Of a stretch of 64,000 nt of DNA, positions 18,411 to 28,460 are shown piece after piece. This stretch comes from Cellulomonas gelida (GTDB lineage Bacteria > Actinomycetota > Actinomycetes > Actinomycetales > Cellulomonadaceae), in the NCBI RefSeq assembly GCF_006538725.1, contig NZ_BJLQ01000005.1, positions 1 to 64,000 of the forward strand. Direction: 5' to 3'. Numbering within the stretch: position 1 is the stretch's first letter; the number at the start of each line of letters is the position of its first letter. Position numbers and translations under genes: made by a program. The notes under the pieces were generated by a model, which ran no database searches, was not told the origin of the DNA, and was given only the letters and a program-made list of their open reading frames with translations.

Positions 18411-18870
18411 GCGGAGCGCTCCTGGGTGCCGCGAACCGCCCTCCACACGCGTGGCGGTCCTCGGTCGGTCGGTCGTCACTCACGCGGCGCGTGGCGACGG
18501 AAGTCGTCGGGCGCGGCCGCACACCGGGCCGGCGGGCGCCTTCGCCTGCCTCGTCCGTCCGGGCCCGGTTGGGCCTCTCGACGGTGCGGCGGCGGCTGGC
18601 GCGCGCAGCGCACTGGGTGCGAGCTCACGGGTTCGCCTCGCGGTGTGGACGCTCGTCGAACCGCGGCCAGTATCGCACAGAGCGCCGGAACCGGCGTGCT
18701 CGCGACGCGCGAGGGGATGACGACAAGTCGTCAGCACCCGGGACCTTCGTCCCGGCCTGGCCCGGGTGCCCGCCCTAGCGTTCCCCTCGGGTGGGATCAC
18801 CGCCTGCAGGACTCCCTGCGCTCTGACGCACGCCCCCACCCATTCGCCGCCCGCACCGCACGGAGAACAC
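18411..18870. other. 460-base divergent intergenic region between rne and cydA
   Basis: This region carries the 5' leader of rne (reading left) and the cydA control region (reading right). The leader may matter for RNase E autoregulation, but I see no specific element in it. The right-hand part holds the DosR-like box at 18740-18753 and a TAGCGT -10 candidate. Overlapping the box is a wider inverted repeat, GCACCCGGG (18734-18742) with CCCGGGTGC (18761-18769). No credible small gene is visible. Confidence 0.6.
18740..18781 (+). promoter_or_regulatory. cydA promoter with DosR/DevR-type operator
   Basis: GGGACCTTCGTCCC (18740-18753) is a perfect GGGAC-N4-GTCCC palindrome matching the core of the mycobacterial DosR consensus. 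A TAGCGT hexamer (18776-18781) could be the -10, giving a start near 18788. The palindrome centre would then lie about 41 bases upstream, the usual place for a DosR-class activator. A matching kinase and regulator are encoded at the end of the same locus. Binding is inferred. Confidence 0.6.
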
Positions 18871-20397
18871 GTGGACGCCCTCGATCTGGCCCGCTGGCAG
18901 TTCGGCATCACGACCGTCTACCACTTCATCTTCGTCCCGCTCACGATCGGCCTGGCGCCGCTCGTCGCGATCATGCAGACGATCTGGTACCGCACCGGCA
19001 ACGAGCGCTGGCTGCGCCTGACCAAGTTCTTCGGCAAGCTCCTGCTGATCAACTTCGCGATCGGCGTCGCCACCGGCATCGTGCAGGAGTTCCAGTTCGG
19101 CATGGCGTGGAGCGAGTACTCCCGCTTCGTCGGGGACGTCTTCGGGGCGCCGCTCGCCATGGAGGCGCTCGCCGCGTTCTTCATCGAGTCGACGTTCCTC
19201 GGGCTGTGGATCTTCGGCTGGGACAAGCTGCCCAAGAAGATCCACCTCGCGTGCATCTGGGCGGTCGCGATCGCGACGAACCTGTCGGCGTTCTTCATCC
19301 TCGCGGCCAACTCGTGGATGCAGCACCCCGTGGGCATCACGTACAACTTCGAGACCGGCCGCGCCGAGATGAACGACATCGGCGCCGTGCTCACGAACCC
19401 GACCGTGCTCGCCGCATTCCCGCACACGATCACCGCCGCACTCCTGACCGCGGGCACGTTCGTCGCCGGCATCGCCGCGTGGTGGATGGTCAAGAAGGTC
19501 CGCGCGGGCGACGCCGCCACGGCGCGCGACGTGTACCGACCGGCCGTGATCCTCGGGCTGGTCGCGATGCTCGTCGGCGGCGCGGGCGTCGCGGTCTCCG
19601 GCGACGCGCAGGCCAAGCTCATGTTCGACCAGCAGCCGGCGAAGATGGCGGCGGCCGAGGGCCTGTGCGAGTCGGCCGACGGCGCATCGTTCTCGATCCT
19701 GGCGATCGGCGACCTCACCAACGACTGCGCGGGCGTCAAGCACCTCATCGAGATCCCGGGTCTGACCTCGTTCCTCGCGACCGGCGACTTCGACTCCCGT
19801 GTCCGGGGCGTCGACGAGCTGCAGGACTACTACGCGCAGTGGATCCGCGACTGGGAGGAGGCCAACGGCGTCGCCCCCACGTTCGACGACGACACGCGCT
19901 TCTATCCGAACCTCGCGATCACCTACTGGTCGTTCCGCCTCATGATCGGCTTCGGCGCCGGTGCGGCGGCCCTGTCGCTCGCCGCCCTGTGGCTGCTGCG
20001 CAAGAAGGGCTCGGTCACGGACAAGAAGTGGTTCGGCACGCTCGGCATCGCCGCGATCGCCACGCCGTTCCTGGCCTCGTCGTTCGGCTGGATCTTCACC
20101 GAGATGGGCCGGCAGCCGTGGGTGGTCGCCCCGAACCCGAACTCCTCGGGCGTCGACGGCGTGTGGCTGCTGACCGCACGGGGCGTCTCGGTCGTCACGA
20201 GCCCGACGACGATCTGGATCTCCCTGATCGGCTTCACGCTCCTGTACGGCGTGCTCGCGGTGCTCTGGTACCGCCTCATGCACCGCTACGCGGTCGAGGG
20301 CGTCGCCGCCAGCGAGAAGGACCCGAGCCCCGAGGCGCGCGCCGCCGCCGGGCGCGACGGCTCCGACGACGACTCGACCCTGTCCTTCGCCTACTGA
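18871..20397 (+). CDS. cydA: Cytochrome bd ubiquinol/menaquinol oxidase subunit I
   Basis: The catalytic, heme-bearing subunit of the high-affinity terminal oxidase; it oxidises quinol and reduces O2 to water in the membrane. 508 residues. The N-terminus LARWQFGITTVYHFIFVPL contains the early His ligand, EFQFGMAWSEYSRFVGDVFG contains the conserved Glu helix, and ESTFLGLWIFGW is intact. The GRQPWVV motif is also present. The Q-loop is of the short type. The GTG at 18871 has a CGGAG site; upstream in-frame residues are not conserved-looking. First gene of cydABDC. Confidence 0.98.
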   Translation: MDALDLARWQFGITTVYHFIFVPLTIGLAPLVAIMQTIWYRTGNERWLRLTKFFGKLLLINFAIGVATGIVQEFQFGMAWSEYSRFVGDVFGAPLAMEALAAFFIESTFLGLWIFGWDKLPKKIHLACIWAVAIATNLSAFFILAANSWMQHPVGITYNFETGRAEMNDIGAVLTNPTVLAAFPHTITAALLTAGTFVAGIAAWWMVKKVRAGDAATARDVYRPAVILGLVAMLVGGAGVAVSGDAQAKLMFDQQPAKMAAAEGLCESADGASFSILAIGDLTNDCAGVKHLIEIPGLTSFLATGDFDSRVRGVDELQDYYAQWIRDWEEANGVAPTFDDDTRFYPNLAITYWSFRLMIGFGAGAAALSLAALWLLRKKGSVTDKKWFGTLGIAAIATPFLASSFGWIFTEMGRQPWVVAPNPNSSGVDGVWLLTARGVSVVTSPTTIWISLIGFTLLYGVLAVLWYRLMHRYAVEGVAASEKDPSPEARAAAGRDGSDDDSTLSFAY

Positions 20398-20419
20398 GCC
20401 GCGAGACGGAGACATCACC

Positions 20420-21508
20420 ATGGAGCTCACGACCGTCTGGTTCGTCCTCATCGCGGTCCTGTGGACCGGCTACCTCGTGCTCGAGGGGTTCGACTTCGGT
20501 GTCGGCATGCTGCTCGGCCTCCTGCCCAAGAAGGGCGACAAGGAGCGCGAGCGGCGCGTCATGATCAACACGATCGGCCCCGTCTGGGACGGCAACGAGG
20601 TGTGGCTGCTCACCGCGGGCGGCGCGATGTTCGCGGCGTTCCCCGAGTGGTACGCGACCCTGTTCAGCGGGTTCTACCTGCCGCTGTTCCTCATCCTCAT
20701 CGCGCTCATCGTGCGCGTCGTGGCGTTCGAGTGGCGCGGCAAGATCAACGACGACCGCTGGCGCACCTGGGCCGACCGCGCGCTGATCTTCGGCTCCTGG
20801 CTGCCGTCCGTGCTGTGGGGCGTCGCCTTCGCGAACATCGTGCGCGGGGTCGAGCTCGACGCCGACCACCAGTACGTGGGCGGGTTCTTCGCGCTGCTCA
20901 ACCCGTTCGCGCTGCTCGGCGGCGCGGTCACCACGCTGATCTTCCTCACGCACGGCGCGATCTTCCTGGCGCTGAAGTCCGACGGCGACATCCGCCGTCG
21001 CGCGGGAGACTTCGCGGCGCGCTCGTCGGTCGTGACGCTCGTCGTCGCCGGCGCGTGGGCGATCTGGGCGCAGCTCGCCTACTCCGACAACGCGTGGACG
21101 TGGGCCGCCGTGGCGGTCGCCGCCGTCGCGCTCGTGCTCGTGGTGCTCGCGACGCGGGCACGACGCGAGGGCCAGGCGTTCGTCGCCTCGGCCGTCGCGA
21201 TCGTGGGCGCCGTCGTGCTGATCTTCGGCTCGCTGTTCCCCGACGTGATGCCCGCGTTCGACCCGGCGAACTCGCTCACGGTCGACAACGCGTCGTCGAC
21301 CGACTACACGCTCACGGTCATGACGTGGGTCGCCGTGGTCCTCACGCCGCTCGTGCTGCTCTACCAGGGCTGGACGTACTGGGTGTTCCGCAAGCGACTG
21401 ACCACCGACCACATCCCGGCGCACACCGGCCTGACGTTCCGCCGCGACGAGCCCGCGGCCGTCGCGGCCGGCTCGTCGGGCGAGGGATCCGGCACGATCG
21501 AGGCGTGA
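20420..21508 (+). CDS. cydB: Cytochrome bd oxidase subunit II
   Basis: The 362-residue partner of CydA, a multi-helix membrane subunit needed for assembly of the heme centre. Landmarks are WTGYLVLEGFDFGVGMLLG near the N-terminus, then INTIGPVWDGNEVWLLTAGG and the AAFPEWYATLFSGFYLPLF helix. It starts 22 bases after cydA with a GGAGAC site. Its TGA overlaps the cydD GTG, so translation is coupled. Confidence 0.98.
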   Translation: MELTTVWFVLIAVLWTGYLVLEGFDFGVGMLLGLLPKKGDKERERRVMINTIGPVWDGNEVWLLTAGGAMFAAFPEWYATLFSGFYLPLFLILIALIVRVVAFEWRGKINDDRWRTWADRALIFGSWLPSVLWGVAFANIVRGVELDADHQYVGGFFALLNPFALLGGAVTTLIFLTHGAIFLALKSDGDIRRRAGDFAARSSVVTLVVAGAWAIWAQLAYSDNAWTWAAVAVAAVALVLVVLATRARREGQAFVASAVAIVGAVVLIFGSLFPDVMPAFDPANSLTVDNASSTDYTLTVMTWVAVVLTPLVLLYQGWTYWVFRKRLTTDHIPAHTGLTFRRDEPAAVAAGSSGEGSGTIEA

Positions 21509-23184
21509 AGCCCCTCGACCCGCGCCTGCTGCGCCACGCCCGCGCGGCGCGGTGGTACGTCGCCCTGACCGTCGCGCTCGGCATCGTCACCGCCGCGCTC
21601 GTCGTGGCCCAGGCACTCCTGCTGGCGCACGCCCTCGGGCGCGCCGTGAGCGACGGCGTCGCCCTCGGCGCGCGGGCATGGGACGCGGTCGCGCCGCTCG
21701 TCGGCTGGTTCGCGCTCGTCGTGGCGGCGCGCGTGCTCGTGACGGTCGTGCAGGAGCGGTACGCCCACCGGGCCGCCGCCCGGGCCGTCGCCGAGCTGCG
21801 CGAGCAGGTGGTGGCGCGCGCGACCGCCCTCGGGCCGCGCCGGCTCGGCGACGGGCGCGCCCCCGAGCTGGTCACGCTCGCGACGCGCGGGCTCGACGAC
21901 CTCGAGCCGTACTTCGTGCGGTACCTGCCCCAGCTCGTCCTCGCCGCGACGGTCACACCCGCGACCCTGCTCGTCGTCCTCGAACTCGAGTGGGTCTCGG
22001 CGGTGATCCTCGTGGCGGTCCTGCCCCTCGTGCCGATCTTCATGTGGCTCGTCGGTGTGCTCACGCAGGGCCGCTCGGAACTCGGGCTCGCCGCGATGCA
22101 GCGGCTGTCCGCACAGGTGCTCGACCTCATCGCGGGTCTGCCGACGCTGCGCGCGCTCGGTCGCGAACGCGGCCCGGGTGCCCGCGTGCACGCCCTGGGC
22201 GACGCGCACCGGCGCGCGACGATGGGCACGCTGCGCATCGCGTTCCTGTCCGGCATGGTGCTGGAGCTGTTGTCGACGCTGTCGGTCGCGCTCGTCGCGG
22301 TGGGTATCGGCCTGCGCCTCGTGCACGGCGACCTCGACCTCGTGACGGGCCTCGCGGTGCTGGTGCTCGCCCCCGAGGTGTTCGCCCCGCTGCGCGCGGT
22401 GGGTGCGCAGTTCCACGCCTCGACGGACGGCGTCGCCGCCGCCGAGGCCGCGTTCGCGGTGCTCGACGAGCCCGCCCCGGACAGGTCGGGCACCGCGCCG
22501 GCACCCGACCTCCCCCGCGTCGGTGTCCGCGTCGAGCACGTGAGCGTGCGCACCGCGCGCGGCGAGACGCCGCGTGACCTGTCGTTCGCGGTCGTCCCGG
22601 GCCGCGTGACCGCGCTCGCGGGGCCGCCCGGGTCCGGCAAGTCGACCGCGGTCGAGGTGCTGCTGGGGCTCCTCACGCCCGACGAGGGCGTCGTGCGGGT
22701 CGGCGACGACGTCGTGGTCGCCGCGCACGAGCCCGGCGCCGTGGACCTCGAGACGTTCTGGCGGCAGGTCGCCTGGCTCCCCCAGCGGCCGGTCCTCGAG
22801 CCCGGCACGCTCGCACAGGTCGTCGGCGGCGACGACGAGCAACGCCGGCGCGCGGCGGAGGTGACCGGGCTGGACGCGGTCGTCGTCGACCTCCCCGACG
22901 GCTGGTCGACCCGCATCGGTCGCGGCGGTCACGGGCTGTCCGTCGGCCAGGCGCAGCGCGTCGCGCTGACCCGCGCGCTCGTGGGCTCGGCGCCGCTGGT
23001 GGTCCTCGACGAGCCCACCGCCCACCTGGACGACGTCGCCGAGCGCACCGTCCTGCGCACGGTGGCCGCGCTGCGCGACGCGGGACGCGCGGTCCTGCTC
23101 GTCGCGCACCGCGCCGCCCTGCTCGCGTGCGCGGACGACGTGGTCACGCTGGACGACGCGCACCTCGCGGCGGTGACGCGATGA
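21505..23184 (+). CDS. cydD: Thiol reductant ABC exporter subunit CydD
   Basis: One half of the heterodimeric ABC exporter that moves cysteine/glutathione-type thiols to the outside and is needed for cytochrome bd assembly. 559 residues: a six-helix membrane domain (about 15-310), then an ATPase domain with Walker A GPPGSGKST, ABC signature GLSVGQAQR and Walker B LVVLDEPTAHLD. The GTG at 21505 overlaps the cydB stop as GTGA. Probable partner is CydC directly downstream. Confidence 0.95.
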   Translation: MKPLDPRLLRHARAARWYVALTVALGIVTAALVVAQALLLAHALGRAVSDGVALGARAWDAVAPLVGWFALVVAARVLVTVVQERYAHRAAARAVAELREQVVARATALGPRRLGDGRAPELVTLATRGLDDLEPYFVRYLPQLVLAATVTPATLLVVLELEWVSAVILVAVLPLVPIFMWLVGVLTQGRSELGLAAMQRLSAQVLDLIAGLPTLRALGRERGPGARVHALGDAHRRATMGTLRIAFLSGMVLELLSTLSVALVAVGIGLRLVHGDLDLVTGLAVLVLAPEVFAPLRAVGAQFHASTDGVAAAEAAFAVLDEPAPDRSGTAPAPDLPRVGVRVEHVSVRTARGETPRDLSFAVVPGRVTALAGPPGSGKSTAVEVLLGLLTPDEGVVRVGDDVVVAAHEPGAVDLETFWRQVAWLPQRPVLEPGTLAQVVGGDDEQRRRAAEVTGLDAVVVDLPDGWSTRIGRGGHGLSVGQAQRVALTRALVGSAPLVVLDEPTAHLDDVAERTVLRTVAALRDAGRAVLLVAHRAALLACADDVVTLDDAHLAAVTR

Positions 23185-25025
23185 CGACGACCGCCATGAC
23201 CGCGAGCCCCGAGACCGCGCGCCCCGACGACGTCGCGGTCCCCCCGCGCGGGACGCTGCGCCGTGCCGTCGCCCTGCTCGAGGTCGACCGCCGACGCTTC
23301 GCCCTCGCGGTCGCGCTCGGCACGCTCGCGCTCGGCTGCGCGGTCGCGCTGGCGGCGGTCTCCGCGTGGCTGATCGCACGTGCGTCGCAGATGCCGCCGG
23401 TGCTCACGCTGTCCGTCGCCACGGTCGGGGTGCGCGCGTTCGGCATCGGTCGCGGCGTGCTGCGGTACGTCGAGCGGCTGGTCTCCCACGACCTCGCCCT
23501 GTCCGGCATGACGCGGCTGCGCACCACGCTGTACGAGAGGCTCGCGGACGGTCGCGCGGGGGCGGTGCTCAGCGTGCGCCGCGGCGACCTGCTCGCACGG
23601 GTCGGGGCGGACGTCGACGACGTCGGCGACCTCGTGGTGCGCGGTCTGCTGCCCGCGGCCGTCGCGGCCACGCTCGGCGTCGCGACCAGCGCCGCGATGA
23701 TCCTCATCTGGCCGCCGGCGGGGCTCGCGCTCGTCGCGTGCCTGCTGCTCGCCGGGGTGGTCGCCCCGTGGCTCGCCGGCCGCGCCGCTCGCAAAACCGA
23801 GCGCCTGGGCGCCCAGGCGCGGGCGGACGTGAACGCCGAGGCGCTCGGTCTGCTCGACGACGCCGGTCCGCTCACCGTCGCGGGCCGCGTGCCCGCGCGC
23901 CTGGACGCGCTGCGCGACGCGGACCGCCGGGCGCGGGGCGCCGTCGACGCAGGGGCAGGCGCCGCCGCCGTCGCAGCGGGGCTCGGGCTGCTCGCGACGG
24001 GCCTTGCCGTGCTCGCCGCCCTGGTCACGGGTGTGCCGGCCGTCGGCGACGGGCGCCTGGACCCCGTGCTGCTCGCGGTCGTGGTGCTCACGCCGCTCGC
24101 GGCCTTCGAGGCGACGTCGGTGCTCCCCCAGGCCGCCGTGCAGGTGCACCGCTCACGTGCCGCGGCGGCGCGCATCCTCGCGCTCGTCGACGCCGCGGAT
24201 GCCGCGGACCCTGCGGACCCTGCAGGCATCGCGGCGCCGCCTGCCGTCGCACCCGGGCCGTCGCCCACCTCTGCGGCTCTCCTCGGCTCCCCCGCGGACG
24301 ACGGGCCCACCCCGCACCTCGCCGCGCGCGGGCTCGTCGTGGGCTGGCCCGGTGGGCCGCCGCTCGTCTCCGGCCTCGACCTCGACCTGCGCCCCGGCCG
24401 GGTCGTCGCCGTCGTCGGCCCGAGCGGCACCGGCAAGACCACTCTCCTGCTCACGCTCGCGGGCCTGCTGCCGCCGCAGGGCGGCTCGTTGACGCTCGAC
24501 ACGGACCCGCGGCTGACGCCCGGCACCGCGGTCGCGCTCACGGCCGAGGACGCGCACGTCTTCGGCACGAGCGTCCTGGAGAACCTGCGTGTCGCACGCG
24601 GCGACGTGAGGGACGACGAGGCGCGCGACGCGCTCGAGCTGGCCGGGCTCGGTCCCTGGGTCGCGGGCCTGCCCGACGGTCTGGCGACCGTGCTGGGGCC
24701 TGACGGCCGCACGCTGTCGGGCGGCGAGCGGCGCCGCCTGCTGCTCGCCCGCGCGCTCGTCGCTCCCGCGCCGCTGCTCCTGCTCGACGAGCCGACCGAG
24801 CACCTCGACGTCACCGGCGCCGACGCGGTGCTGCGCACGCTGCGCGCGCAGGCCGACCGCGGCGTGCTCGTCGTCACGCACCGCCTGACGGGGCTCGAGG
24901 TCGTCGACGAGGTCCTGCGGCTCGCCGACGGTCACGTCGCGGCGCGCGGGACCCACGCGGACCTCCTGGCGCGTGACGCCGACTACCGTGAGGCCGTGTG
25001 GCACGAGACCGAGGACCGCGCATGA
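23181..25025 (+). CDS. cydC: Thiol reductant ABC exporter subunit CydC
   Basis: The second half of the CydDC exporter; 614 residues. The transmembrane region (about 30-330) opens with SAWLIARASQMPPVLTL. It is followed by an Ala/Pro-rich linker and the nucleotide-binding domain: Walker A GPSGTGKTT, signature TLSGGERRR and Walker B LLLLDEPTEHLD. It is coupled to cydD (ATGA) and to the downstream kinase (ATGA), so all five genes form one translation-linked unit. Confidence 0.95.
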   Translation: MTTTAMTASPETARPDDVAVPPRGTLRRAVALLEVDRRRFALAVALGTLALGCAVALAAVSAWLIARASQMPPVLTLSVATVGVRAFGIGRGVLRYVERLVSHDLALSGMTRLRTTLYERLADGRAGAVLSVRRGDLLARVGADVDDVGDLVVRGLLPAAVAATLGVATSAAMILIWPPAGLALVACLLLAGVVAPWLAGRAARKTERLGAQARADVNAEALGLLDDAGPLTVAGRVPARLDALRDADRRARGAVDAGAGAAAVAAGLGLLATGLAVLAALVTGVPAVGDGRLDPVLLAVVVLTPLAAFEATSVLPQAAVQVHRSRAAAARILALVDAADAADPADPAGIAAPPAVAPGPSPTSAALLGSPADDGPTPHLAARGLVVGWPGGPPLVSGLDLDLRPGRVVAVVGPSGTGKTTLLLTLAGLLPPQGGSLTLDTDPRLTPGTAVALTAEDAHVFGTSVLENLRVARGDVRDDEARDALELAGLGPWVAGLPDGLATVLGPDGRTLSGGERRRLLLARALVAPAPLLLLDEPTEHLDVTGADAVLRTLRAQADRGVLVVTHRLTGLEVVDEVLRLADGHVAARGTHADLLARDADYREAVWHETEDRA

Positions 25026-26797
25026 GCGACGACACCAGCGTCACCGACCTGATCGGGTCGGGTGACGACGGGCTGGTACCCGTGGCCGGCACCCCGTTCA
25101 CCGGCGGTGTGATGTCCGACTCGCACGCGAACCCCGTCCCGCTGACCGGCGACGCGCTCACCGACCTGCTCGATGCGATCCTCGCCGTCGCCAGCGAGCT
25201 CGAGCTGCCGGCGGTGCTCAACCGCTTCGTGCAGGTCAGCGCCGAGCTCACGGGAGCGCGGTACGGCGCCATCAACGTGCTCGACGGCAACGGCACGTCG
25301 ACGACGTTCGTCTACACCGGCATCCCCACCGCGGTCGCCCGCATGATGAAGCACGCCCCCCACGCGCGCGGCGTGCTCGGCCAGATCCCCGCGGTCGGCG
25401 CGCTGCGGCTCGACGACCTGCGCGAGCACCCCGCCTTCCAGGGCTGGCCCTCGAACCACCCGCCGATGGGCTCGTTCCTCGGGGCGTCGGTGCGTGTCGG
25501 CGAGCACGTGTTCGGCCAGCTCTACCTCTCGGAGAAGCCCGGCGGCTTCACCGAGTCCGACGAGCAGACCGTGATCGCCCTCGCCGCCGCGACCGGCGTC
25601 GCGGTCGAGAACGCCCAGCTCTACGCCGAGTCCGCGCGCCGCGAGCACTGGCTGCGCGCCGGTCAGGAGATCACGACGATGCTGCTCGAGGGCGTCGACG
25701 AGGAGGACGCGCTCGCGCACATCGCCGCGACCGCACGTGCCGTCGCCGGCGCCGACACCGCCGCGCTCGCGCTGCCCGGCGTGGGCGGGCGGCTGTTCAT
25801 CGAGCTCGCCGACGGTCACAACGCCGACGAGCTCGTCGGCGTCGCGATGCCCGAGCACGGGCGCGCGTGGACCGTGATGACCGAGGGCCACGGGCTGCTG
25901 ACGCCGTCGCTGTCCGCGTCGCGCAACGTCAAGGTCGAGCAGATGCGCGCGTTCGGACCGGCGATGTTCGCACCGCTGCAGACCTCGGGCCGCGGCGTCG
26001 GCGTGCTCATCCTGCTGCGGCGCGTCGGGAGCCTGCCGTTCGAGGAGAGCGACCTCACCACGGCCGAGTCGTTCGCGGCGCAGGCCGCGCTCGCGTTCGT
26101 GCTCGCCGAGGCCCGGCACGCCCAGGACATCGCGGCGCTGCTCGACGAGCGCGAGAGGATCGCGCGCGACCTGCACGACATGGCGATCCAGCAGCTGTTC
26201 GCCACGGGCATGCAGCTCGAAACCGTCCGGCGACGCGCCGCACGCGGAGTCGAGGCCAGCGAGCTCACCTCGATCGTCGAGGAGGCCCTCGACAACGTGG
26301 ACTCCTCGGTCCGGGAGATCCGCACGATCGTGCACGCGCTGCGTGACCCCGACGCCGCGACCGGCCTCGTCGAGCGACTGCGCCGCGAGGCCTCGCTGGC
26401 CCGCACCGGGCTGGGCTTCGCCCCGTCGCTCGTCGTGACCCTCGACGGCGCTCCCCTGTCCGACGACGGTCTCGACGAGGACCGGCTCGACGAGCGCGTC
26501 GGCCTCGCGCTCACCGACGACGTCGTGGCCGTCGTGCGCGAAGGACTGGCGAACGCCGCGCGGCACGCGCACGCGCAGTCGGTGACCGTGCGCGTCGACG
26601 TGCGCGGCCAGGGGCCGCTCGGCTCGGTGCGCGTCGAGGTCGAGGACGACGGCGTCGGGCTGCCCGCCCAGCGGGACCGCCGCTCCGGGACCGGCAACCT
26701 CGCCTCACGCGCGCGTCAGCACGGCGGCACGTTCACGATCGGTGCCGCACCCGCCGGCCGCGGCACGCTCCTGAGCTGGCAGGTCGCGCTCGACTGA
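25022..26797 (+). CDS. DevS/DosT-like GAF-GAF sensor histidine kinase
   Basis: A 591-residue soluble kinase: GAF1 (about 55-200), GAF2 (about 215-365), a HisKA_3 dimerisation helix with ERERIARDLHDMAIQQLF (phospho-His near 383), and a HATPase domain (about 475-590; NAARHAHA N-box, DDGVG and GTGNL). GAF1 keeps the SNHPPMGSFLGASVRV segment; in mycobacterial DevS/DosT the corresponding HHPPM region carries the heme-ligating His (recalled, not checked). It is therefore a candidate O2/NO/CO or redox sensor. Its ATG overlaps the cydC stop. The likely partner is the regulator converging from the right, 3 bases from its stop. Confidence 0.9.
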   Translation: MSDDTSVTDLIGSGDDGLVPVAGTPFTGGVMSDSHANPVPLTGDALTDLLDAILAVASELELPAVLNRFVQVSAELTGARYGAINVLDGNGTSTTFVYTGIPTAVARMMKHAPHARGVLGQIPAVGALRLDDLREHPAFQGWPSNHPPMGSFLGASVRVGEHVFGQLYLSEKPGGFTESDEQTVIALAAATGVAVENAQLYAESARREHWLRAGQEITTMLLEGVDEEDALAHIAATARAVAGADTAALALPGVGGRLFIELADGHNADELVGVAMPEHGRAWTVMTEGHGLLTPSLSASRNVKVEQMRAFGPAMFAPLQTSGRGVGVLILLRRVGSLPFEESDLTTAESFAAQAALAFVLAEARHAQDIAALLDERERIARDLHDMAIQQLFATGMQLETVRRRAARGVEASELTSIVEEALDNVDSSVREIRTIVHALRDPDAATGLVERLRREASLARTGLGFAPSLVVTLDGAPLSDDGLDEDRLDERVGLALTDDVVAVVREGLANAARHAHAQSVTVRVDVRGQGPLGSVRVEVEDDGVGLPAQRDRRSGTGNLASRARQHGGTFTIGAAPAGRGTLLSWQVALD

Positions 26798-26800
26798 GCG

Positions 26801-27496
26801 TCAGTGCCCGGGCTCGGCCCGCCAGCTCGAGTGCTTGCGCGACGCGACCCACGCGGCCACCTGCGTGCGCCGCTGCAGGCCCATCTTCGCCAGCAGCGAC
26901 GTGATGTGGTTCTTGACGGTCTTCTCCGCCACCCCGAGGCGCTCGGCGATCTCGCGGTTCGACAGGCCCTCGCCGATGAGGTCGAGCACGCGCAGCTCGC
27001 TGGGCGTGAGGTTCTCGGTCGGGTCGTCCTGACCCGCCCGACGGCGCGTGACCGTGCGCTCGTCGAGGAGCGTACGGCCCGCGGCGACGCTACGGATCAC
27101 GTCGGTGATCTCGGCACCGCGCACGGACTTCAGCAGGTATGCGGCGGCGCCGGCCTCGAGCGCGGCGGCCAGTGCGTCGTCGTCGTCGAACGACGTCAGG
27201 ACGATCGCCCGAGCGGCAGGGTGTGCCTCGCGCACCTGCTTCATGAGGTCGATCCCCGTCCCGTCGGGGAGCTGCAGGTCGACGAGCATCACCTGGGGGT
27301 GGACGAGCGTCGCACGACGCACACCGTCGGCCACGGATCCGGCCTCGGCGACGACGGTCATCCCCTCGGTCCGCTCGACGACCTCGGCGATCCCTCGTCG
27401 GACGACCTCGTGGTCGTCGACGATCATGACCGTGATAGGTCCCTGCTTCCCGGGGGCGGCATCAAGGTTCGGCACGGTGGCATCGTATCCAGGCAT
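26801..27496 (-). CDS. NarL/DevR-like response regulator
   Basis: A 231-residue two-component regulator. The receiver domain has acidic pair D27-D28, phospho-acceptor D73 (VMLVDLQLPDG), LTSFDDDD and YLLKSVRG. A LuxR-type helix-turn-helix follows near 163-220 (LTPSELRVLDLIGEGLSNRE, then EKTVKNHITSLLAKMG). It probably takes phosphate from the adjacent kinase and binds the GGGAC-N4-GTCCC box before cydA; both points are inference from neighbourhood and family. The start is uncertain: ATG 27496 shares bases with the ATG of the divergent dehydrogenase, and GTG 27475 is an alternative. It is convergent with the kinase gene. Confidence 0.9.
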   Translation of the reverse strand: MPGYDATVPNLDAAPGKQGPITVMIVDDHEVVRRGIAEVVERTEGMTVVAEAGSVADGVRRATLVHPQVMLVDLQLPDGTGIDLMKQVREAHPAARAIVLTSFDDDDALAAALEAGAAAYLLKSVRGAEITDVIRSVAAGRTLLDERTVTRRRAGQDDPTENLTPSELRVLDLIGEGLSNREIAERLGVAEKTVKNHITSLLAKMGLQRRTQVAAWVASRKHSSWRAEPGH

Positions 27497-28460
27497 GAGG
27501 ACGATCCTGTTGCCCACCACGCTCGACGAGCGTGTCGACCTGCCTGCGGGGTGGCGTTCGCTCCCGTACGACCCGGCCCTGCCGCTGCCGACCGAGGGTC
27601 AGGACGCCGAGGTCCTCGTCGTGTGGGGCAACCGCCGCGCCGCGCTCGCGGACGCCGCCGAGCGCCTCGGCGACCTGCGCTGGGTCGCGTGCCTCGCGGC
27701 CGGCACCGACGCGATCGACGACGCCGGGTTCGACCCCGGCGTGCTGGTGACCTCGGGGCGAGGGCTGCACGACGGCCCCGTGACCGAGCACGCCCTCGCG
27801 CTCGTGCTGGCGTGCGCGCGTCGCCTGCCGGACCTCGTGCGCGCCCAGGACGAGCGCCGCTGGGCGGGCGAGCTCGGCGGCGTCCAGCCGGTGCACGACA
27901 CGCAGGTGCGCACGCTGGCCGGCGCGCACGTCGTCGTGTGGGGCTTCGGCTCGATCGCCGCGCGGCTCGCCCCGCTGCTCGTCGCACTCGGTGCGAGCGT
28001 CACCGGCGTCGCGACGAGCGCGGGCGAGCGGCACGGGTTCCCCGTCGTCACGCCCGACGAGCTGGGCACCGTCCTGCCGTCCGCGGACGTGCTGATCGGC
28101 ATCCTGCCCGCGACCCCGCAGACGCGGCACGCGATCGGTGCGCCCGTGCTGGCTCAGCTCCCGCAGCGGGCGTTCGTCGTGAACGTCGGCCGGGGCAGCA
28201 CGCTCGACGAGACCGCGCTGCTCGACGCGGTGCGCACGCGACGTCTCGCGGGCGCCGCGCTCGATGTGTTCGAGCGCGAGCCACTGCCTGCGTCCAGCCC
28301 GCTGTGGGGCGAACCGCGGATCCTCGTGAGCCCGCACGCCGCCGGCGGGCGGCCGCAGCACGCGGGCACGTTCCTCACGGCCGCCCTGCGCGCGTACGAC
28401 GCGGGCCAGGATCCGCCCAACGTCGTGCCGCGCACGGGCGCCAGCGCCCCGAGGCGCTGA
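27495..28460 (+). CDS. D-isomer-specific 2-hydroxyacid dehydrogenase family protein
   Basis: A 321-residue NAD-dependent oxidoreductase of the D-2-hydroxyacid family. It has a Rossmann motif VVVWGFGSIAARLAP (about 138-152) and the catalytic set Arg in NVGRGSTLDE, Glu in ALDVFEREPLP and His in SPHAAGG. The physiological substrate is unknown; a phosphoglycerate- or glyoxylate-type reductase is possible. The ATG at 27495 overlaps the start codon of the response regulator on the other strand, and there is no clear Shine-Dalgarno, so it may be leaderless. Confidence 0.9.
   Translation: MRTILLPTTLDERVDLPAGWRSLPYDPALPLPTEGQDAEVLVVWGNRRAALADAAERLGDLRWVACLAAGTDAIDDAGFDPGVLVTSGRGLHDGPVTEHALALVLACARRLPDLVRAQDERRWAGELGGVQPVHDTQVRTLAGAHVVVWGFGSIAARLAPLLVALGASVTGVATSAGERHGFPVVTPDELGTVLPSADVLIGILPATPQTRHAIGAPVLAQLPQRAFVVNVGRGSTLDETALLDAVRTRRLAGAALDVFEREPLPASSPLWGEPRILVSPHAAGGRPQHAGTFLTAALRAYDAGQDPPNVVPRTGASAPRR

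Follow-up and report, generated by a model that had tools for sequence, protein, structure and literature searches.

Which signal controls the cytochrome bd operon of Cellulomonas gelida, and why does a sensor kinase gene lie directly behind it? These questions are raised by a locus within a stretch of 64,000 nucleotides (contig NZ_BJLQ01000005.1, positions 1 to 64,000, hereafter the window), which is part of a Cellulomonas-like genome of 3.79 Mb in 91 contigs (G000). The results obtained here make it probable that the locus encodes a low-oxygen two-component switch of the DosS/DosR type, in which the sensor gene has joined the operon under its control. DosR-type systems have mainly been studied as mycobacterial dormancy switches. 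In Cellulomonas and its relatives, including Actinomycetaceae, a pair of this type appears to govern the bd oxidase together with some core anaerobic enzymes. The features of the locus are the following:

18718 to 18733, no strand: second upstream dyad TGACGACAAGTCGTCA, with GAC-N5-GTC as its conserved core, lying about 20 bases ahead of the main palindrome
18740 to 18753, no strand: candidate DosR-type operator GGGACCTTCGTCCC, an exact GGGAC-N4-GTCCC, predicted centre at -41.5
18776 to 18781, forward strand: predicted -10 hexamer TAGCGT, with the predicted +1 near 18788
18871 to 20397, forward strand: cydA, cytochrome bd oxidase subunit I (Pfam Cyt_bd_oxida_I; GTG start with GGAG upstream)
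20420 to 21508, forward strand: cydB, cytochrome bd oxidase subunit II (Pfam Cyt_bd_oxida_II)
21505 to 23184, forward strand: cydD, ABC exporter subunit (NCBIfam CydD over cut-off; the GTG start overlaps the cydB stop)
23181 to 25025, forward strand: cydC, ABC exporter subunit (NCBIfam CydC over cut-off; the ATG overlaps the cydD stop)
25022 to 26797, forward strand: DosS/DosT-like GAF-GAF sensor histidine kinase (GAF-GAF-HisKA_3-HATPase; the ATG overlaps the cydC stop)
25457 to 25468, forward strand: HPPM motif of GAF1, its His aligned with the DosS heme ligand His149
26801 to 27520, reverse strand: DevR/DosR-like NarL-family response regulator (Response_reg-GerE; convergent with the kinase)

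The gene order is cydA-cydB-cydD-cydC-kinase, and the DevR-like regulator gene converges on it, with only 3 bases between the two stop codons (26795-26797 for the kinase, 26801-26803 for the regulator). Between the end of cydA at 20397 and the start of cydB at 20420 there is a gap of 22 bases, and the other junctions are 4-base overlaps (GTGA at cydB/cydD, ATGA at cydD/cydC and again at cydC/kinase). The initial annotation, a short note made from the DNA alone, had described a cyd-kinase unit with overlapping stop and start codons, a 22-base spacing between cydA and cydB and a convergent NarL-type regulator, and these junctions confirm it. Judging from the gene order, cydABDC and the kinase gene are probably co-transcribed. 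In Cellulomonas fimi Clb-11 exposed to Cr(VI), cydA, B, C and D are reported to decrease together (PMC10251745), which fits a single operon and is silent on oxygen.

The central piece of the argument is the palindrome upstream of cydA. An exact copy about 41 bases ahead of a plausible cydA transcription start had been proposed, and this holds, since TAGCGT as the -10 hexamer puts the palindrome centre at -41.5 by arithmetic. The proposal also implied that relatives sharing the module should conserve the palindrome. This was examined in 57 cydA upstream regions, consisting of the window and 56 loci with cydA, which are related and not independent samples; GGGAC-N4-GTCCC was present with at most one mismatch in 50 of them and exactly in 33. 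Promoter geometry was defined as a TANNNT hexamer 28-32 bases past the palindrome centre, the start sites being predicted, not mapped. The distance from the centre to the start of TANNNT was 29 bases in 24 rows, 30 in 14 and 31 in 8 (46 of the 50), and 47 of the 57 promoters combined the palindrome (at most one mismatch) with TANNNT at 28-32 bases. This spacing therefore places the palindrome centre near -41.5, over the -35 region. Compared with all 1024 arms, GGGAC ranked first upstream of cydA, both for exact matches (33, next 6) and for exact matches with geometry (31, next 1). With one mismatch allowed it reached 50 (next 32), and 47 when geometry was added (next 17, for the neighbouring arm AGGAC, and then 1). 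Among 30 cydA loci in 27 further genomes (28 selected by hand and searched, 6 of the genus and 22 of the order), 11 had the site and 9 the geometry. Three same-genus genomes lack the regulator, and their cydA genes have no site.

The consensus of the mycobacterial DosR box is likewise of the GGGAC type. A site over the -35 region could obstruct RNA polymerase, and the operator might then repress, with the regulator at -41.5 blocking the polymerase until it is released at low oxygen. The sequence alone does not tell repression from activation. Boxes overlapping the -35 region are described as a common feature of the analysed DevR target promoters of Mycobacterium tuberculosis, occurring at DevR-induced promoters (PMC3029386). 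Repression is regarded as very improbable, and activation is the preferred sign.

Does the palindrome occur more often than chance would allow? By genome-wide count and by conservation, it does. Inside the window alone there was no enrichment (5 matches at up to one mismatch against 8.65 expected), and window-level enrichment was rejected as evidence. The whole G000 genome holds 29 exact sites versus 4 for the reversed pattern, and around these 29 sites, read on both strands, TANNNT stood at offsets 28-31 in 7 cases and at the remaining scanned offsets in 4. Across the genus, 34 of 36 genomes hold more copies of the palindrome than of its reversed control, by a mean factor of about 5.8; G004 (5 against 10) and G005 (7 against 7) do not.

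Concerning the protein that would bind this site, the neighbouring regulator shows the Response_reg-GerE architecture, with a receiver carrying the phospho-Asp54 site and a NarL-type helix-turn-helix, and its best solved-structure match is DevR. Asp54, Thr82, Lys104, Lys179, Lys182 and Asn183 are kept in 66 of 66 regulators, and the last three are described as the base contacts of DevR (PMC4082495). The palindrome could be genuine and yet bound by another NarL-family regulator, the neighbouring one controlling something else. A first look at G000 gave 68 loose NarL-type candidates, and one genome (G024) has no regulator at E 1e-60 and retains a site at nrdD. Against this stand the DevR match and the three conserved contact residues, and also the way in which the palindrome count tracks the regulator: the 33 genus genomes that have it carry 26.8 sites on average (control 4.2), versus 7, 12 and 17 (controls 7, 5 and 8) in the three, a small number, without a match at E 1e-60. 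Binding by a different regulator is hence considered improbable. FNR was also tried as a rival and rejected, as the two best of the four Crp-family matches over cut-off showed no four-cysteine N-terminus by eye. A Rex-type protein is present in the genome, so other redox regulators do exist.

The kinase presents the GAF-GAF-HisKA_3-HATPase architecture (Pfam) expected of DosS/DosT kinases, and its GAF1 matches GAF-A of DosT (E 6e-32) and of DosS (E 2e-29). An AlphaFold2 model built from 33 sequences (mean predicted local distance difference test, pLDDT, 81; predicted template modelling score, pTM, 0.51) was compared with the PDB. Ranked by E-value, the leading matches were long proteins of several domains, for instance phytochromes and PDE5 GAF domains, and the model superposes on the GAF-A domains of DosT and DosS at 1.5-2.0 Å for most chains, with 44-47% identity. 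The HPPM motif occupies residues 146-149 of the kinase (counted from the ATG at 25022), where His146 corresponds to DosS His149. The proposed resemblance of GAF1 to the heme-binding region of DevS/DosT is borne out by this motif and by the conservation of the heme residues: 78 of 81 kinases retain the equivalent of the proximal ligand His149, and 79 of 81 that of the distal Tyr171, a Tyr in the window. In DosS, His149 is described as the heme ligand and Tyr171 as needed for gas discrimination (PMC4082495). A heme His is absent from the kinases of L093, L094 and L095; the first two belong to cyd-linked loci, in which no palindrome stands upstream of cydA.

What the heme would sense is a separate question. 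In the same circuit, the kinase could act as a redox or nitric oxide (NO) sensor of the state of the electron transport chain that balances the oxidases, instead of sensing oxygen directly. A debate on gas versus redox sensing exists for DosS itself (PMC4082495). Moreover, residue 87, which is Glu in DosS and Gly in DosT, is described as influencing how stable the O2 complex is (PMC4082495). The window has Asn here, as do 59 of 81 kinases; being neither Glu nor Gly, this residue assigns the kinase to neither subtype, and the behaviour of the sensor is not predictable from it. On the other hand, the retained Tyr171 and the fact that several of the co-regulated candidates are anaerobic enzymes count against redox or NO sensing, which is held as the less likely option, with a real share of the probability. 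Direct sensing of oxygen remains the preferred reading.

The heme motif and the operator are also lost together. Where HPxM and the Tyr are intact, the operator with geometry is found in 47 of 51 loci, versus 0 of 6 where they are degenerate (Fisher 5.8e-6); with the weaker criterion of His and Tyr only, the figures are 47 of 54 versus 0 of 3 (p 0.004). Seen from the other side, 6 of the 10 cydA loci without operator geometry have a degenerate heme motif, versus 0 of the 47 with it. As the loci are related, this co-loss was judged to represent three or four independent cases. In two of the six degenerate loci (L076 and L079) a palindrome at 0 or 1 mismatch remains, with no TANNNT. Cellulomonas terrae (L058) and Cellulomonas humilata BE332 (L064) have kept the module and lost the operator, and their motifs read HPTT with Cys in place of the Tyr, and HPSE. 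Loci with a decayed heme motif and a missing operator offer natural test cases for this connection.

The arrangement itself is shared by many relatives. In a scan of named genomes, the best 80 of 189 confirmed kinase loci were analysed; among the matches listed, the closest kinases were those of Cellulomonas persica (95% identity over the best segment) and Cellulomonas uda (91%). In 67 of the 80 loci, no more than 500 bases separate the end of cydC from the kinase downstream, in agreement with the earlier guess that such wiring is common among relatives, and all four cyd genes are in the locus in 56. Linked loci come from Cellulomonas, Actinotalea, Georgenia, Flavimobilis, Sanguibacter, Bowdeniella, Varibaculum, Actinomyces and Gleimia. 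Four loci were too short to judge linkage and nine are unlinked, with kinase identities of 51-67%; C. humilata, Root930 and BP9.bin26 are among the latter, each with a cyd-linked copy in the set as well. The regulator is convergent within 1 kb in 53 of the 80 loci and elsewhere in the locus in 12; it was not found in 7, and another 8, where the locus ends within 1.5 kb, could not be judged. Another DosS-like kinase, with an identity of about 52-55%, was seen in L073 and L075 and as second matches in G006, G011 and G014; beside it, the L073 and L075 loci have neither cyd genes nor a regulator.

Is this switch confined to its own operon? The initial annotation had spoken of a self-contained module, and this proved too narrow, for in relatives the palindrome is also found ahead of nrdD, of feoAB and of a pyruvate:ferredoxin-oxidoreductase-like gene (por). 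In G000, the fitting neighbours of intergenic sites are cydA, NrdD, a POR-domain gene with a GltD-like flavoprotein behind it, FeoA-FeoB, PntA, an OYE-type reductase and a YwiC-like protein, so that about seven neighbours suit low oxygen more or less well. NrdD, FeoB and PntA score over the NCBIfam cut-off; the POR protein is below that of pyruvate:ferredoxin oxidoreductase (383 of 911 bits), and its substrate is therefore uncertain. Four of these genes were followed through the 36 genus genomes, of which 27 have nrdD, 8 por, 17 feoB and 35 pntA, reading 700 bases upstream of feoB (to include feoA) and 400 for the others. With at most one mismatch, the palindrome precedes nrdD in 24 of 27 (GGGAC first of 1024 arms), feoB in 16 of 17 (exact in 12, rank 1) and por in 7 of 8 (exact in 2, rank 2); L249, the second fragment of one gene, was left out of the feoB count. 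The promoter geometry is found in 16 of 18 feoB loci, 7 of 8 for por and 4 of 30 for pntA. No universal-stress protein appeared among the Pfam-scanned site neighbours, in an analysis that made no systematic search for universal-stress or dormancy genes.

Two of these promoter groups carry further repeated stretches. Behind the palindrome, many nrdD promoters (L170-L196) have a CATAGAAATTCCCACA-like stretch at the expected -10 position, and by eye many carry TAGAAA near the expected distance in place of TANNNT. In the feoAB promoters (L235-L252), a TGAGGTGAGGCTTGCCT-like stretch is repeated between the palindrome and the -10, and it resembles the box of an iron regulator (DtxR/IdeR), which suggests that feoAB may be under joint control by iron and oxygen.

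Several results weigh against the proposed switch or its extent. In G000, 15 of the 29 exact sites fall inside open reading frames (ORFs) predicted by a crude caller, and only about 7 of the 14 intergenic ones have a fitting neighbour. At one mismatch, GGGAC comes second at feoB, behind CGTCG (17 of 17), and ties for first with CGACG at por. TANNNT stands at the right distance in only 2 of 27 nrdD promoters, and pntA was rejected as a conserved target beyond near relatives (10 of the 30 read among 35 matches; rank 20 of 1024). G004 has the regulator, yet its sites fall below the control, and G024 lacks it, yet its nrdD site (one mismatch) has the geometry. Finally, no operator stands at cydA in C. 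terrae, C. humilata BE332 and G018, each of which retains both the kinase and the regulator.

Regarding all these data, the idea of an O2, NO or redox sensor module at cyd is supported by the conserved operator, heme and DNA-contact residues, and the following mechanism is inferred from sequence. A drop in oxygen would leave the GAF1 heme unliganded and lead to autophosphorylation of the kinase, which would pass the phosphoryl group to the convergent regulator at the Asp54 equivalent. The phosphorylated regulator would then bind GGGAC-N4-GTCCC over the -35 region (predicted centre -41.5) and switch on cydABDC together with the kinase gene in one transcript, giving a positive feedback tied to an oxygen-scavenging oxidase. 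The same regulator would very likely turn on other palindrome-bearing anaerobic genes, namely feoAB, the pyruvate:ferredoxin-oxidoreductase-like gene and probably nrdD.

As for known systems, the pair shares with Mycobacterium DosS/DosT-DosR (DevS/DevR) a two-GAF kinase with heme His and distal Tyr, a NarL-type regulator with the same DNA-contact residues and a box overlapping the -35 region, predicted in our case. Unlike there, the kinase gene belongs to the cyd operon, where it comes after cydC, and the box stands at the promoter of that operon. For Mycobacterium smegmatis, the 49-gene DevR regulon is reported not to include cydAB, and loss of devR is stated to leave the hypoxic induction of cydA as it was (data not shown in that paper); its cytochrome bd is also induced upon inhibition of respiration, through Crp1, a cAMP receptor protein and not DevR (PMC7739888). 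OsdK/OsdR of Streptomyces coelicolor is orthologous to DevR and has a palindromic site as well, but its reported consensus is AGGGCCGATCGGCCCT, and the words "cyd" and "cytochrome" are absent from the main text of the article (PMC5069765). PolS/PolR of Microlunatus phosphovorus is a DevS/DevR-like pair tied to the aerobic/anaerobic shift, which differs in its reported direct-repeat site GTTCACnnnnnGTTCaC and its targets in phosphate metabolism (PMC6754071). No description of a DevS/DevR-cyd link in Cellulomonas or relatives was found among the open-licence literature matches listed. The components are known, and the wiring and the content of the regulon look new. This suggests that control of oxygen metabolism by the DosR family is broader than dormancy, and it offers a non-pathogen model for DosR-type signalling in which the control of anaerobic growth in Cellulomonas is directly testable.

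A dyad of the form GAC-N5-GTC, placed about 20 bases ahead of the operator, was found in 31 of 49 cydA promoters versus 1 of 57 other target promoters. The 49 are the 50 palindrome rows without L089, which was dropped for want of promoter geometry at its nearest match. A role as a general second DosR box is unsupported, given that the dyad is nearly cyd-specific. Elsewhere, the main aerobic-anaerobic switch is FNR or ArcAB. As a tentative proposal, with somewhat more to be said against it than for it, the heme-GAF DosS/DosR pair could fill this role in the facultatively anaerobic Cellulomonadaceae and relatives, the sensor lying in the cyd operon so that oxidase and sensor rise together, and the second, cyd-only operator integrating another signal.

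Some further sites deserve mention. Those at contig ends (L132 and L136) were left out of the interpretation, and L010 and L134 have the promoter geometry before genes that do not obviously fit, encoding a DegT aminotransferase and a GntR regulator. At L006 (G000, C3:160383), the palindrome and the geometry precede a membrane-protein-like ORF without a Pfam match, which is divergent from an ORF that by eye resembles a helix-turn-helix regulator.

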